Of a stretch of DNA of 64,000 nt, positions 50,390 to 60,123 are shown piece after piece; position 1 is the first letter of the stretch; each line of letters starts with the position of its first letter. The position numbers and the translations under genes are program-made. The notes beneath the pieces were generated by a model. The model did not search any database. It was given only the letters and a program-made list of their open reading frames with translations, and was not told the DNA's origin. This stretch comes from Candidatus Mediterraneibacter guildfordensis (GTDB taxonomy: Bacteria; Bacillota; Clostridia; Lachnospirales; Lachnospiraceae), in NCBI GenBank assembly GCA_019112735.1, contig DXIS01000035.1:1-64000 (forward strand), read 5' to 3'.

Positions 50390-51406
50390 ATGAAATATAT
50401 CTCTTTCGCCATTCCGTGTTACAACTCGGAGGCGTATATGGAAAAAGCCATTAACTCGATCCTTGTCGGCGGCAAAGACGTGGAGATCATCGTGGTCAAC
50501 GATGGTTCAAAAGACGGCACCCAGGCCATCGCCGAACGCTATCAGGAAAAATATCCCACCATTGTCAAAGCGGTCAGCAAAGAAAACGGCGGACACGGCG
50601 ACGCAGTGAACTGGGGGCTGCGCCATGCCACCGGAAAATATTTTAAAGTCGTGGACAGCGACGACTGGGTGGATGAGGAATCGCTTCACAAGATCCTTGA
50701 AGCCGTAAAAAACTTTGTGGAAGCCGAAACTGAAGTGGATATGATCATCGCCAATTATGTGTACGAAAAAGTCGGCATGGAACACAAGAAAGTGATCCGT
50801 TACGACAACGTCCTGCCGGAGAACCAGATCTTCCGCTGGGACGACATCGGCCGGTTCCGACTGGATCAGTACATCCTCATGCACTCCGTCATCTACCGCA
50901 CGGAAATGCTGAAACTGTGCCAGCTCAATCTGCCGAAGCATACGTTCTACGTAGACAATATTTACGTCTACTACCCGCTGCCGCACGTGCGCACACTGTA
51001 TTACCTGAACGTGGATTTCTACCGGTACTTCATCGGCCGCGAAGATCAGTCGGTCAATGAGAAAGTCATGATCGGACGGATCGATCAGCAGCTCTTCGTG
51101 ACAAAAACCATGATCGCAATGTATGAGCTTCGCCTGATCACAAGCAAAAAGCTCCGCAAATACATGATCAACTACCTGGCCATCATGATGACTGTATCCT
51201 CGATCCTGTGCATCCGTTCAAAGAAACAGGAAAACCTGATCAAGAAAAAGGAACTCTGGGATTATCTGAAGCGCAAAGATTACAAGACATATATCAAGAT
51301 CCGCTACGGCATCCTCGGACAGACCATGAACCTGCCGGGCCGTTCCGGAAGGAAAGTATCCTCGCTGGCATACAGCGTAGCGAGACGGCTGATCGGATTC
51401 AACTAG
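50390..51406 (+). CDS. Family 2 glycosyltransferase
   Basis: 338 residues. GT-A fold: SFAIPCYNSEAYMEKAINSI, VEIIVVNDGSKDGTQAIAER, KENGGHGDAVNWGLRHATGK and the metal motif VVDSDDWVDEE. There is no membrane helix; the C-terminal 130 residues are basic and tyrosine-rich. It probably adds a sugar to a cell-wall or surface polymer; donor and acceptor unknown. GGGAGG precedes ATG 50390. Repeat arrays begin 25 bp after its stop. Confidence 0.88.
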   Translation: MKYISFAIPCYNSEAYMEKAINSILVGGKDVEIIVVNDGSKDGTQAIAERYQEKYPTIVKAVSKENGGHGDAVNWGLRHATGKYFKVVDSDDWVDEESLHKILEAVKNFVEAETEVDMIIANYVYEKVGMEHKKVIRYDNVLPENQIFRWDDIGRFRLDQYILMHSVIYRTEMLKLCQLNLPKHTFYVDNIYVYYPLPHVRTLYYLNVDFYRYFIGREDQSVNEKVMIGRIDQQLFVTKTMIAMYELRLITSKKLRKYMINYLAIMMTVSSILCIRSKKQENLIKKKELWDYLKRKDYKTYIKIRYGILGQTMNLPGRSGRKVSSLAYSVARRLIGFN

Positions 51407-51431
51407 GAATCGTTTTCAAGAATTACCGCCC

Positions 51432-51542
51432 CGCTGGCGGGTTTTCGCGCCGGCTGGGGCGGGTTTTCGCGCCGGCTGGGGAGGGTTTTCGCACCAGCTG
51501 GGCGTTTTTTGCATCAACTGGGACGGGTTTTCGCACCAACGA
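51432..51542. repeat. 22-bp tandem repeat, five units
   Basis: Five copies of a unit resembling GGGTTTTCGCGCCGGCTGG. The conserved GC steps fall at 51447, 51469, 51491, 51511 and 51533: spacing 22, 22, 20, 22. Unit 4 has lost two bases. It directly abuts the 53-bp array. On the other side of the nuclease-like gene a weaker 19-22-bp repeat on the opposite strand (52941-53010) has a similar core (GGATTTTGGC). Confidence 0.75.
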
Positions 51543-51790
51543 ACGGTAAGATTGTTGATTTAATGATTTCCGACCGTATGATTTCAAGTACAATCACCGT
51601 CGACTTTCATGTTTTTAAGTTCCCGACCGTACATTTTAAGCTGCAGGCACCGTCATTTCTCATATTTTCCTGTTCCTGACCGTAAGATTCAACTCGCCAC
51701 CACCGTCTGTTTTCACATTTATCAATTCCCGACTGTTTGCCCCCTCATAAGCATACCGTTGGATCCACTATTTTCCACTTTTCGTCCGTA
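51543..51790. repeat. Phased motif array 1 (53-bp period, 23/30 spacing)
   Basis: Hexamers of consensus ACCGTA/ACCGTC start at 51543 (ACGGTA), 51573, 51596, 51626, 51649, 51679, 51702, 51732 (ACTGTT), 51755 (ACCGTT) and 51785 (TCCGTA). The steps are 30, 23, 30, 23, 30, 23, 30, 23 and 30 with no exception. The sequence between them is AT-rich and only loosely conserved (TTTCAT...TTTT.AATTCC before the A-type motif). It lies downstream of the nuclease-like gene. Confidence 0.85.
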
Positions 51791-51833
51791 TCAATCTATT
51801 TTAAAGCATATCAAAAGATATGAATATTGAACT

Positions 51834-52628
51834 TCATATCAGATATTTTTCAGCAAGCCTTTTTACATGCCTCATATCCAGAACGTTTTTCTCTGTTTCG
51901 AACGTGAGGATGAGTCTTTCTCCCGGGTAAATATCGTTTTCCTCATATGCCTGGATTTTCTTTACAGCATTATGAGCATATACCGGATCATCCATTCTGC
52001 CGTCATGTTCCCAGTATATTTCCTGTCCGGACGCCTTTGACAGGAACGTAAAATCCGGATGAACAATCCCAAATCTGTTCAGATACAACGGTTTCTCATA
52101 ATGATACGGGATTCCACTCCGGTAAAAGTAATCCGCCATGATCTTTTCTGATTTAGACCGGACACGCTCGCCTTTTTCTGTCAGTATAACCGGTGTTCCT
52201 TCCGGAAAATCTTTTTTCCTGTATTCTTCGGAAATCCACTTTTCCAGTTTTTGATCCCAGGTCGGCTCAACCGGAATAATCAATGCTTTTCTTGCCTCAT
52301 GTTCCTTTAAAAATATCTTCTCAATTTCGTCGTCTGCATAATCCTTTGTTATTCTCCTGATCTGAGCGAGCCTTTTCGCAGCCAGTTTTGAGATCTTTTC
52401 ATCATATGACTTCTGGGCAAGCCGGCGGATCAATCGAGTCTCTGCTTTCGGAATGTATGTGCCTCGTTTTTTATCACCCGGCATACTGAGATAATACTGA
52501 TATGTTTTCCCGCACCCAGACAACCTCAGATTTCCTGAAGGCGCATCGTGCAGCCTTTCTGTCGTTTCATTCAGTAACTTTTCCATTCTTTCTTCTTCCT
52601 TCAATAACATTGTCCTAAGTTTTTCCAT
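51834..52628 (-). CDS. PD-(D/E)XK nuclease-like protein between two repeat arrays
   Basis: 264 residues. The N-terminal part has SGNLRLSGCGKTYQYYLS and KKRGTYIPKAETRLIRRLAQ, a pattern I associate with uncharacterised Lachnospiraceae proteins. A coiled-coil-like helix follows. The C-terminal domain has Glu161 in RSKSEKIMADYF, Asp192 in IVHPDFTFL and Glu207 in IYWEHDG, the order of PD-(D/E)XK sites, though histidine replaces the last lysine. RLILTFETEK closes the fold. AAGGAG lies before ATG 52628. Its DNA is more AT-rich than its neighbours. Function unknown; the flanking arrays suggest a DNA- or RNA-directed role. Confidence 0.75.
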   Translation of the reverse strand: MEKLRTMLLKEEERMEKLLNETTERLHDAPSGNLRLSGCGKTYQYYLSMPGDKKRGTYIPKAETRLIRRLAQKSYDEKISKLAAKRLAQIRRITKDYADDEIEKIFLKEHEARKALIIPVEPTWDQKLEKWISEEYRKKDFPEGTPVILTEKGERVRSKSEKIMADYFYRSGIPYHYEKPLYLNRFGIVHPDFTFLSKASGQEIYWEHDGRMDDPVYAHNAVKKIQAYEENDIYPGERLILTFETEKNVLDMRHVKRLAEKYLI

Positions 52629-52675
52629 ACACTTCTCCTTCCTTATTTACTTTCATTTTACATATACATGGATTT

Positions 52676-52923
52676 ACGGCTTGAATGTGCCTTTTTGAAT
52701 TCGCGACCGTACAATTTCATCAATTAACACAGTCGGCATTTTTAATTTTGAATTCCAGACTGTACGATTTTACAAATTAACACAGTCAGGTTTCATGATT
52801 TTGAATTTTGGACTGTTTGTTCTTACAGATTAACACAGTCGATATTCATAATTCTGATTTTGCAACTGTACATCCTTGCTTAAATGTACAGTCACAAACA
52901 AAGATTTGTCATACCGGGCCGTA
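52676..52923. repeat. Phased motif array 2 (53-bp period, 23/30 spacing)
   Basis: Motifs start at 52676 (ACGGCT), 52706 (ACCGTA), 52729 (ACAGTC), 52759 (ACTGTA), 52782 (ACAGTC), 52812 (ACTGTT), 52835 (ACAGTC), 52865 (ACTGTA), 52888 (ACAGTC) and 52918 (GCCGTA). The steps are again 30, 23, 30, 23 without exception, ten sites over 248 bp, exactly as in array 1. Neighbouring GACTGT and ACAGTC are inverted repeats of each other. It lies just upstream of the nuclease-like gene. The end merges into a hairpin ATACCGGGC-N6-GCCCGGTAT (52911-52934). Confidence 0.85.
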
Positions 52924-52940
52924 CAGCCCGGTATCTGTGA

Positions 52941-53010
52941 GCTAAAAGCCAGTTCTGTTTCGCCAGAATCCATCCCGCGTGCCAAAATCCGTTCTACGCA
53001 CGCATCGGAT
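52941..53010 (-). repeat. Degenerate 19-22-bp repeat next to array 2
   Basis: Read on the minus strand, GGATCCGATGCG, GGATTTTGGCACG, GGATTCTGGCGA and GGCTTTTAGC recur at 22, 19 and 21 bp. The core resembles the 22-bp tandem at 51432 but in the opposite orientation. It runs up to the end of the xpt gene. The similarity is weak. Confidence 0.35.
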
Positions 53011-53030
53011 CCAGCCCGTGTTCAGCGGAC

Positions 53031-53684
53031 CTAGTCCAGTGTCGCGCTCCGGCAGATCTCGCCTTCTTTCGGTTCGACGCATCCGCATCCTGCCGTCATT
53101 TTGCTCTGATCCCGGAACTGGACCTCGCCCGTCTCGGCATTCATGCCGTCTACGATGGCCAGCGACTCCAGCTGGAAGCCGAGATTTCTTATGATCCGCC
53201 CGCCGGACTGGAATCCTTTCTCGATGGCGATCCCGATGCCTTCTACAGTGGCGCCGGCAGACTGGACGATCTGGATCAGCCCCTGCAGGGCACAGCCGTT
53301 TGCCAGGAAATCATCGATGATCAGGACATGGTCGTCAGGCGTGAGAAACTTCTTCGCTACGATCACATGATTGATGCACTTATGTGTGAACGATTCGACC
53401 TCCGCCACATACATCTCGCCGTCCAGGTTGATGCTCTGGGATTTCTTGGCGAATACAACCGGGACATCGAAATGCTGGGCCGCCACGCAGGCGATGCCGA
53501 TCCCTGACGCTTCGATCGTCAGGATCTTATTGATCGGCCTGCCGGCAAAACGGCGTTTAAACTCCGCGCCCATCTGGTCAAGAAGCTTGATATCCATCTG
53601 ATGATTCAGAAAACTGTCCACTTTCAGGACATTTCCCTCTTTTACCACTCCGTCTTTTACGATACGTTCTTCCAGAAAATTCAT
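53031..53684 (-). CDS. xpt: Xanthine phosphoribosyltransferase
   Basis: 217 residues. PRPP-binding motif [18 protein letters not shown] (about 125), purine site [15 protein letters not shown] and [20 protein letters not shown] match Xpt of Firmicutes (about 194). A C-terminal addition of about 22 residues ([20 protein letters not shown]) carries three cysteines and is not part of the known fold. ATG 53684 overlaps the stop of the YesL-like gene and has GGAGG upstream. No purine riboswitch is seen upstream of the operon. Confidence 0.93.
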
Positions 53685-59104: not shown

Positions 59105-60123
59105 GATTTATGTTCCTCCAGTGTATCTTTCAGTTCTTTGAATGCTTCTGCAAACCGCTTTGAGGATGCCGTCGGGTTGCGCCTCAGCTGGCTTGCAATA
59201 TGCCGGTAATTCCGGTCCGTCCGGGCGCCCATTTTCCCAAGTTCATCCCGGATGATCCTCTTCAGATCCGGAAGTTCATCCTTCATGAAAAGCCCGGCGC
59301 GCTCCGCCAGTTCCTCCAGCTGCAGCCTTCTCTGCTCACGCTGCATGCCGACCCGCTCCAGGCAGGCCTTCCGGTAGGAACGCCGCTTCTGCGCCAGCTC
59401 CTCTGTCCGTTTCCGGTGTTCCTCAGCCAGCTGCTCGGAACGTTTCTTATACTCCGCCACCAGTTCATCTGCACGCTGCCGGTATTCGCCGACCAGTTCG
59501 TCGGAACGCTGCCGGTATTCCTCCAGCTTCTCCTCGGATGCGGCCAGCACCCGCTCCTGAAGTCTGCGGATCTGCTCTTTGCTCTCTTCCAGCTGGGCCA
59601 GGACCCGTTTGAAATCCATCGCCTCGTTGAAAGACTGGGTCAGATCGACTGACGCCGCAACTGTCAGCACCATGGCCATGATGTCCGACGCCAGAAGCGG
59701 GATCCCCAGAACCACCCGCTCGATGGGCACATGGACGAACCGTACGAGCAGGACGGAAAACACGCCCCAGCAAAGCGATGAACTGGCGCAGATGTATCCG
59801 TGCACATTCAGCTTCTGGTTGCTGTAATCCCAGTACCGCACATGGAACATGCGCTCCATCACCGCACCGGTTACATACTCAAGCGCCGTGGCGGCGACCA
59901 GGCCGAAGATAAAGATCAGCCACGGATGCTCCCGCACGCCGATGGTGCTCACCAGGATCACCACCGCTCCTGATCCGTAGATCGGCAGCATCGGTCCGTG
60001 AAGGAACCCCCGGTTCACCCAGTGCCGCTTCCGCACAGACACATAGCAGCTCTCCCAGACCCAGCCGATGAAGCTGTAGATAAAGAAGAAGATCAGCCAC
60101 TGGGATAAATGATATGCGTGCAT
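59101..60123 (-). CDS. CmpB-type (PF06541) membrane protein with coiled coil
   Basis: 340 residues. The first 165 hold four or five hydrophobic segments with FIYSFIGWVWESCYVSVRKR and FLHGPMLPIYGSGAV, the hallmark of the 'putative ABC-transporter type IV' CmpB family. Residues about 175-300 are a long charged helix with four 11-residue repeats: EYRQRSDELVG, EYRQRADELVA, EYKKRSEQLAE and EHRKRTEELAQ. An 11-residue period gives a right-handed coiled coil. Function unknown. It is coupled to nth. Confidence 0.8.
   Translation of the reverse strand: MHAYHLSQWLIFFFIYSFIGWVWESCYVSVRKRHWVNRGFLHGPMLPIYGSGAVVILVSTIGVREHPWLIFIFGLVAATALEYVTGAVMERMFHVRYWDYSNQKLNVHGYICASSSLCWGVFSVLLVRFVHVPIERVVLGIPLLASDIMAMVLTVAASVDLTQSFNEAMDFKRVLAQLEESKEQIRRLQERVLAASEEKLEEYRQRSDELVGEYRQRADELVAEYKKRSEQLAEEHRKRTEELAQKRRSYRKACLERVGMQREQRRLQLEELAERAGLFMKDELPDLKRIIRDELGKMGARTDRNYRHIASQLRRNPTASSKRFAEAFKELKDTLEEHKS

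Follow-up and report, generated by a model that had tools for sequence, protein, structure and literature searches.

A putative PD-(D/E)XK enzyme of Clostridia and its helically phased arrays of locus-specific half-sites

Here we describe a locus of Candidatus Mediterraneibacter guildfordensis in which the gene of a putative PD-(D/E)XK enzyme stands between two arrays of short inverted half-sites, with a period of whole turns of the DNA helix. The gene is a member of an unnamed family of Clostridia, and the core that appears best supported by the sequences is the pairing of an enzyme with phased arrays of its own; the function of this pair is less certain. We favour the reading that the locus is one “duo”, a site-specific enzyme together with the arrays that belong to it, which would spread in the manner of REP sequences and their RAYT partners; we give it a probability of roughly 0.45, and its main rival is a chromosome scaffold. 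The preference for repeat spreading comes from arrays that look amplified and copied and that are commoner in genomes with the gene, as well as from an active site that is almost invariant.

In the window, i.e., the whole stretch of 64,000 nucleotides that was analysed, array 1 (51543..51790) lies 3′ of the gene and array 2 (52706..52922) 5′ of it, neither being assigned to a strand. Array 1 consists of nine exact ACNGT sites (at 51543, 51573, 51596, 51626, 51649, 51679, 51702, 51732 and 51755) in alternating steps of 30 and 23 bp, and of a degenerate TCCGT at 51785 that is still in register; on the gene strand its half-site reads (T/C)ACNGTCG, the pairs are inverted and the period is 53 bp. 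Array 2, with alternating steps of 23 and 30 bp and the same period, has eight exact sites (52706, 52729, 52759, 52782, 52812, 52835, 52865 and 52888) and two degenerate ones in register, ACGGC at 52676 and GCCGT at 52918. The former belongs to the gene-proximal half-site (52676..52682, without assigned strand; AAGCCGTAAAT on the gene strand), in 30-bp register with array 2, whose counterpart in the related locus L003 is AAGCCGAACAT. An earlier note on this DNA had counted ten motifs on each side, which is correct only if one degenerate site in array 1 and two in array 2 are included, the exact sites being nine and eight; its observation that the 30/23 steps run without a slip was borne out for both arrays, with ten sites in register per side. 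Throughout the 64 kb, chains of at least three exact ACNGT sites at 23/30 steps are these two arrays only, and none of 20 shuffles of the window by a first-order Markov model contains such a chain. TRF reports a 53-bp repeat with 75% matches for array 2 and does not list array 1. The gene is neighboured by one gene resembling glycosyltransferases and one resembling phosphoribosyltransferases, the latter of which we take to be xpt. Between the glycosyltransferase-like gene and array 1, a GC-rich repeat of 22 bp (GGCGGGTTTTCGCACCAGCTGG, TRF) is present in about 4.8 copies (51430-51538), and comparable GC-rich stretches are seen at the matching position in L002 and L003. A 33-bp repeat (4.4 copies, 66% matches) occupies 59394-59538 of the window.

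The gene (51834..52628, minus strand) is conserved upon comparison with its homologues and encodes a protein of 264 residues, composed of an N-terminal arm and a C-terminal PD-(D/E)XK domain (residues 132-264; 51837..52235, minus strand). Its AlphaFold2 model has a mean pLDDT of 93.9 and predicts the arm to consist of a helix, a small sheet and a second, long helix, with a variable beta-sheet region (residues 28-62; 52443..52547, minus strand) that is the candidate reader of the half-sites. The model places E161 on a helix and D192 and E207 on strands, and among 135 homologues E161, D192 and H208 are conserved in all 135 and E207 in 134. These homologues are unique full-length genes (160 before duplicates were removed), whose profile match begins no later than position 40 and runs to at least position 230 and which differ from one another in the last 200 residues, a set that omits the loci fetched for xpt and rpsI and from which truncated copies were dropped, though several of them have arrays (e.g., L024, L056, L059 and L073). 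In Foldseek, the whole protein has as top matches the restriction and repair nucleases NucS, DrdV, Bax1 and BamHI, weakly (best E 0.03, no match at E 0.001), and searches of Pfam and NCBIfam gave no match up to E 1. The predicted core fold and the E, D and (D/E) residues support membership of the PD-(D/E)XK superfamily, in agreement with what the earlier note had proposed for this protein. The motif (WEHx, with H208 invariant) lacks the usual catalytic lysine two positions past the second acid, and residue 209 varies (D in 44, F in 24, E in 20 and L in 16 of 135 homologues); a migrated lysine or arginine, or H208 itself, may stand in for it. A known fold for the N-terminal arm was rejected, the best PDB match reaching only a non-significant E of 0.32.

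A scan of genome contigs covering 84,980 species returned 73 related loci, whose titles mostly correspond to Lachnospiraceae or nearby genera and of which 52 have an upstream repeat with a step of 51-54 or 62-64 bp. Searched with alignment A1, 16 of 58 genomes of the genus gave matches at E 1e-30, as did 97 of 299 genomes of the family at E 1e-15; in the class, 28 of 391 did so at E 1e-15, some of them in the nuclease domain only. Several genomes in the family and class searches have six or more matches. At the level of the phylum, 6 of 398 genomes match at E 1e-30, five being of the same family and the sixth a match in the nuclease domain only. Among the matches listed, family members follow genes that we take to be rpsI, guaA, argF and xpt, and also lie at other places.

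Array presence was scored on the flanks by either of two methods, a 7-mer occurring at least five times in both orientations (a criterion reached by 18 of 780 shuffles) or an autocorrelation above 55 at a lag of at least 45 (the autocorrelation threshold, i.e., the 99% shuffle value, is 51, and one of 253 shuffles scored 100/100); because this definition is broad, the counts include a few other repeats. Arrays were found on either side of 111 of the 125 full-length homologues with at least 300 nt of both flanks, 14 loci having none by either method. Together with the shuffles, these figures reject an accidental link between gene and array, a link that the earlier note had proposed to check through the flanks of homologues. 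They also show that a pair of flanking arrays, as in the window, is not the rule, since arrays lie upstream in 106 of 128 cases and downstream in only 23 of 132 (flanks of at least 300 nt), at least four of the latter being other repeats (L048, L053, L210 and L235). Two chromosomal places in members of the genus served as controls for DNA without the gene. At the xpt place (30 fetched, 55 matches), three carry gene and array, one is cut off and 26 carry neither; at the rpsI place (30 fetched, 41 matches), three carry both, eight are cut off at 80 nt or less and 19 carry neither, some of these 19 spanning only 200-400 nt. One rpsI control, L154, scored 53 against the threshold of 51, with a gap-free repeat at lag 54 located 1.1 kb away in which no inverted arms are visible. 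The contigs L132, L134, L135, L146, L147, L149, L156 and L157 end within 80 bp after rpsI. Downstream of the gene, L007 and L008 have a second array with a leader identical to the upstream one and no gene behind it, and L048 and L053 contain, at a distance of some 200-400 bp on that side, a direct repeat of 100 bp which resembles a duplicated tRNA sequence.

For each flank, the most frequent 7-mer among those present in both orientations was taken, and the gaps of 40-115 bp between successive sites of the same orientation were recorded. The 547 gaps fall at 51-54 (289), 61-65 (84), 71-76 (67), 83-87 (39), 93-97 (15) and 102-108 bp (38), the remaining ones being 14 at 42-50 and one at 111, and not a single one lies in 55-60, 66-70, 77-82, 88-92 or 98-101 bp. 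At 10.5 bp per turn the vector strength R is 0.82 (n=547), and it is 0.85 with one modal gap per flank (n=83) and 0.84 or 0.88 with one modal gap per protein cluster (35 clusters at 50% identity and 14 at 40%, respectively). Upstream autocorrelation lags give R=0.87 (n=88), the highest value among 2000 random lag sets being 0.36, and those above 55 give R=0.82 (n=26). The periods are whole helical turns, from five to nine and about ten, the latter possibly a doubled five, since two units of 53 bp would give a gap near 106 bp. Given this clustering, the DNA face, and not unit length alone, appears to be under selection; the suggestion that all sites of one kind lie on one face of the DNA, made earlier for the window, thus extends to the whole family.

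The units contain two inverted arms of 6-10 nt, whose sequence varies widely by locus (AACCGTA, GCCGAAC, ATTCGTA, GTACGTA, CCGCTGT, GGGACAA, ATTACGT, TACCCCG and many more), near relatives often having the same arm sequence, so that one motif for all arrays gives way to locus-specific half-sites. Fresh arrays repeat the whole unit, spacers included, and diverged arrays keep only the short arms. Identical columns amount to 92% in half-sites versus 42% between them in six loci, and to 92% versus 72% in four loci, with motif columns defined by the first sequence; half-sites appear to be retained while the intervening DNA drifts. The loci L018 and L054 have near-identical array units, a fresh amplification. 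Among 19 pairs of paralogues within one genome, drawn from the 64 arrays with an arm score of at least 9 bits that were also used for the Mantel test, none has the same site; their mean similarity is 3.18, and that of between-genome pairs is 3.37 at 30-60% protein identity and 3.22 below 30%. Motif similarity follows residues 28-62 given the nuclease domain (partial Mantel r=0.33; 0 of 500 permutations), and follows the nuclease domain given the beta region only weakly (r 0.10; 16 of 500); the other N-terminal parts give 0.17 and 0.18 given the nuclease domain, and the sliding-window correlation peaks at residues 31-55. Furthermore, L003 occupies the same chromosomal place as the locus of the window, with a nuclease domain that is 91% identical and a beta region that is 51% identical, and in the half-sites of both its arrays and in the gene-proximal site the TACNGTC type is replaced by the TTCGGCY type. 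This locus would represent a natural switch of the reader region together with its half-sites.

Arrays are not confined to the surroundings of the gene. This was apparent in two complete genomes, G719 and G302, which were searched for exact pairs of three motifs, as the window's genome was for its own; exact-pair searches overlook diverged arrays. In G719, TACCATA (period 72) occurs at six loci plus one isolated pair and TACCCCG (period 94) at 12 loci, and in G302, CCCGTAA (period 53) occurs at three loci; the reversed-pattern controls gave 0. The stretches fetched around 18 gene-free arrays of these genomes contain no relative of the gene, and the cognate gene is over 20 kb away from 16 of these arrays and within 5 kb of two, both of them TACCCCG arrays. 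Because spacers are more alike across loci (similarity means of 0.39-0.68, taking the better of two orientations) than when shuffled (means of 0.21-0.30), the dispersed arrays are probably copies. Frames near gene-free arrays in L251 (2140-2484) and L255 (1-1242) are, we presume, transposase-like.

In the genome of the window, no second array of the window's motif is seen (two isolated pairs outside, reversed-pattern control 1). Throughout the genus, exact AACCGTA pairs were found in 14 of 16 gene carriers, mostly in the gene's own arrays, and in 2 of 42 genomes in which the gene was not found; away from the gene, the figures are 7 of 16 versus 2 of 42 (Fisher p=0.001). All 11 stretches fetched around such distant pairs hold 4 to 12 in-register sites, counted with up to one mismatch, and no relative of the gene. 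The two non-carriers, G013 and G036 (no gene at E 1e-30; assemblies 81% and 90% complete), have arrays of seven and six sites in register, shuffles for such arrays giving 0 sites in 107 of 110 cases and 2 in three, which rejects the idea that gene-free arrays exist only in carriers. The association between gene and array is strong but, on account of these two genomes, not exclusive, and of the two findings that the earlier note regarded as signs of an accidental link, homologues lacking arrays are the minority described above, which speaks against accident, and arrays without the gene do occur. A gene-free AACCGTA array persists as a four-site remnant in register in the window's own genome (G000; L274, contig C20, 1093-1183) and another, with seven sites, in G006 (L280); both are possible relics of an older duo. 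As the gene-linked arrays of these two genomes carry another half-site, and no gene was found in the two non-carriers, an array can evidently persist in the absence of its enzyme, either as a relic or because it serves some purpose itself.

Taken as a duo, the locus would work through several steps. The N-terminal beta-sheet arm very probably reads a half-site of about 7 bp in double-stranded DNA. The enzyme would bind the inverted pairs of half-sites as a dimer, and with hardly less confidence we expect neighbouring dimers to assemble on one face of the DNA, since successive units are nearly always whole helical turns apart. The sequence pattern is that of arrays cognate to one enzyme and changing with it, and several duos in a genome therefore need not share sites, crosstalk being presumably lacking. 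Finally, and for this last step with somewhat less than even odds, the enzyme, with its nearly invariant active site, would cut or nick array DNA, repair from other copies would amplify and homogenise the arrays and disperse them to intergenic places, and binding near the gene start may limit the enzyme's own expression. By such copying through repair, the duo would behave like a REP/RAYT pair with a different enzyme.

The main rival, which we regard as less likely, proposes that the arrays are intergenic anchors of a chromosome scaffold, where the bound enzyme bridges or insulates regions or acts on supercoiling, its nuclease domain relieving topology or being regulatory. A parallel exists in the BIMEs and their gyrase. 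Helical phasing would suit such an assembly, as would half-sites that are kept while spacers diverge, and persistence where the matching gene is missing would be expected of sites that are of use by themselves. Moreover, judged by the nearest frames, the 18 gene-free arrays of the two complete genomes are intergenic, nine between convergent and nine between tandem genes and none between divergent ones (L267 becomes convergent if a longer right-hand frame is used); the p value of 0.019 for the convergent excess, however, rests on an assumed convergent baseline of 25%. The almost invariant active site argues against a scaffold, and so do the patchy occurrence in the genus (16 of 58 genomes), the change of motif between close relatives and the several duos per genome, three traits that suggest conflict or selfish spread more than a housekeeping role. 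Both the selfish repeat/nuclease unit and the cooperative binding scaffold that the earlier note had envisaged remain, as the two leading readings.

Improbable in our view is a role restricted to autoregulation and sequestration, the array being an oversized operator and a sponge that holds a dangerous nuclease low and bound. The upstream position of most arrays (106 of 128) and the half-site near the gene start, which changes along with the array, would be expected of an operator. Nevertheless, L217 and L240 have a clear array downstream only, cognate arrays also lie far from the gene, and independent repressor dimers would not require the same helical phase at every unit; the promoter scan, in turn, identified no promoter, with five promoter-like sites versus 3.6 expected.

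Still less probable is a guard or defence system in which the array keeps the enzyme inactive until loss or degradation of chromosomal DNA, for instance by a phage, releases it. The nuclease domain is akin to that of the PADLOC candidate PDC-S68 (E 1.4e-27), the distribution is patchy and paralogues differ in specificity. However, the match to PDC-S68 covers the C-terminal nuclease domain only, and candidates of this kind are the sole argument for the defence locus mentioned in the earlier note; the AAA and helicase proteins found on plasmids share the same C-terminal domain and, like PDC-S68, are large and excluded from the match at the N-terminal arm. Furthermore, the neighbours in the 13 loci listed are mostly housekeeping-like, as judged by eye. 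Mobile elements were also considered as carriers. A plasmid element was rejected, all seven plasmid matches being to the nuclease domain only, and so was a phage element: the three phage records are uncultured and unverified or short, the best one, 4.2 kb long and 31% identical over 89% of the protein, stays below the threshold for upstream lags (48/100), and a search of viral contigs gave no match. A transposon with array ends is not supported by the single empty site compared, that of L141 at the rpsI place, where array, leader and gene are missing as one piece relative to L011 and neither a target-site duplication nor a terminal repeat is seen.

Whether the arms act as DNA or as RNA can be approached from their mismatches. 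Read on the coding strand, arm pairs comprise 2553 complementary positions and, as mismatches, 96 G.T, 77 A.C and 130 others; as G.T is not in excess over A.C (p=0.17), the mismatches point to neither strand as one that folds, be it as RNA or as single-stranded DNA, and this, together with the whole-turn phasing, favours recognition of the arms as double-stranded DNA. Hairpin RNAs transcribed from the arrays and processed by the enzyme or serving it as guides would account for the inverted arms of 6-10 nt and are very improbable, given the lack of this strand bias, whole-turn periods that have no reason in RNA, and no Rfam family at gathering score in 51300-53100 (one sub-threshold match). A CRISPR or RNA guide array is rejected by the repeat structure, the lack of strand bias and the phasing, as had already been concluded for the window: CRISPR loci have cas genes and repeats of 20-50 nt that are identical and separated by unique spacers, whereas here diverged arrays keep short arms only, fresh ones repeat the whole unit, and by eye there is no cas gene in 13 loci.

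Among known systems, iterons, parS/parC and operator arrays are protein sites arranged in arrays that adjoin the gene of the binding protein. We know of none among them with a nuclease of invariant active site, nor with a comparable range of periods or locus-specific half-sites. Tn7-like ends, in turn, have several TnsB sites near the gene of the PD-(D/E)XK enzyme TnsA; by contrast, no transposase was seen by eye in the 13 gene loci listed here, arrays are usually one-sided, and the one empty site compared has no target-site duplication. The closest likeness is with the “REPtrons”, where the catalytic gene of a RAYT (TnpAREP) is described as flanked by inverted repeats, with co-evolution of repeat and enzyme and with REP/BIME repeats dispersed between genes (PMC2817692, PMC8266576). 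In G719 and G302, likewise, cognate inverted repeats are found both beside the gene and dispersed, a likeness limited by the window's own motif, which lacks a dispersed array in its own genome. The enzyme differs, however, being a putative PD-(D/E)XK protein here and an HUH/Y1 tyrosine transposase in REPtrons, and the present half-sites, without hairpin bias, would be read in double-stranded DNA. Moreover, the periods follow whole helical turns, while inter-REP segments vary in length (PMC2817692). Here arrays are few and several duos occur per genome, whereas REPs are reported at more than 100 per genome.

Altogether, these loci may represent an undescribed class of bacterial repeats, a proposal that we put forward at a little below the odds given to the favoured reading: enzymes that would read, maintain and spread their own phased arrays across the chromosome, with several mutually orthogonal duos co-occurring in one genome and new specificities arising by matched change of reader and array. 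In the searches of open PMC papers no description of such a system was found, and the combination of a nuclease, a rapidly re-specified apparent DNA-reading region and whole-turn arrays was not found in the searches made. As the periods fall on whole helical turns, a protein-DNA assembly would be readable from sequence alone. Furthermore, the matched series of readers and half-sites could yield a recognition code for an arm without a significant PDB match, and the dispersed arrays would offer a testable model for the origin and spread of bacterial intergenic repeats.
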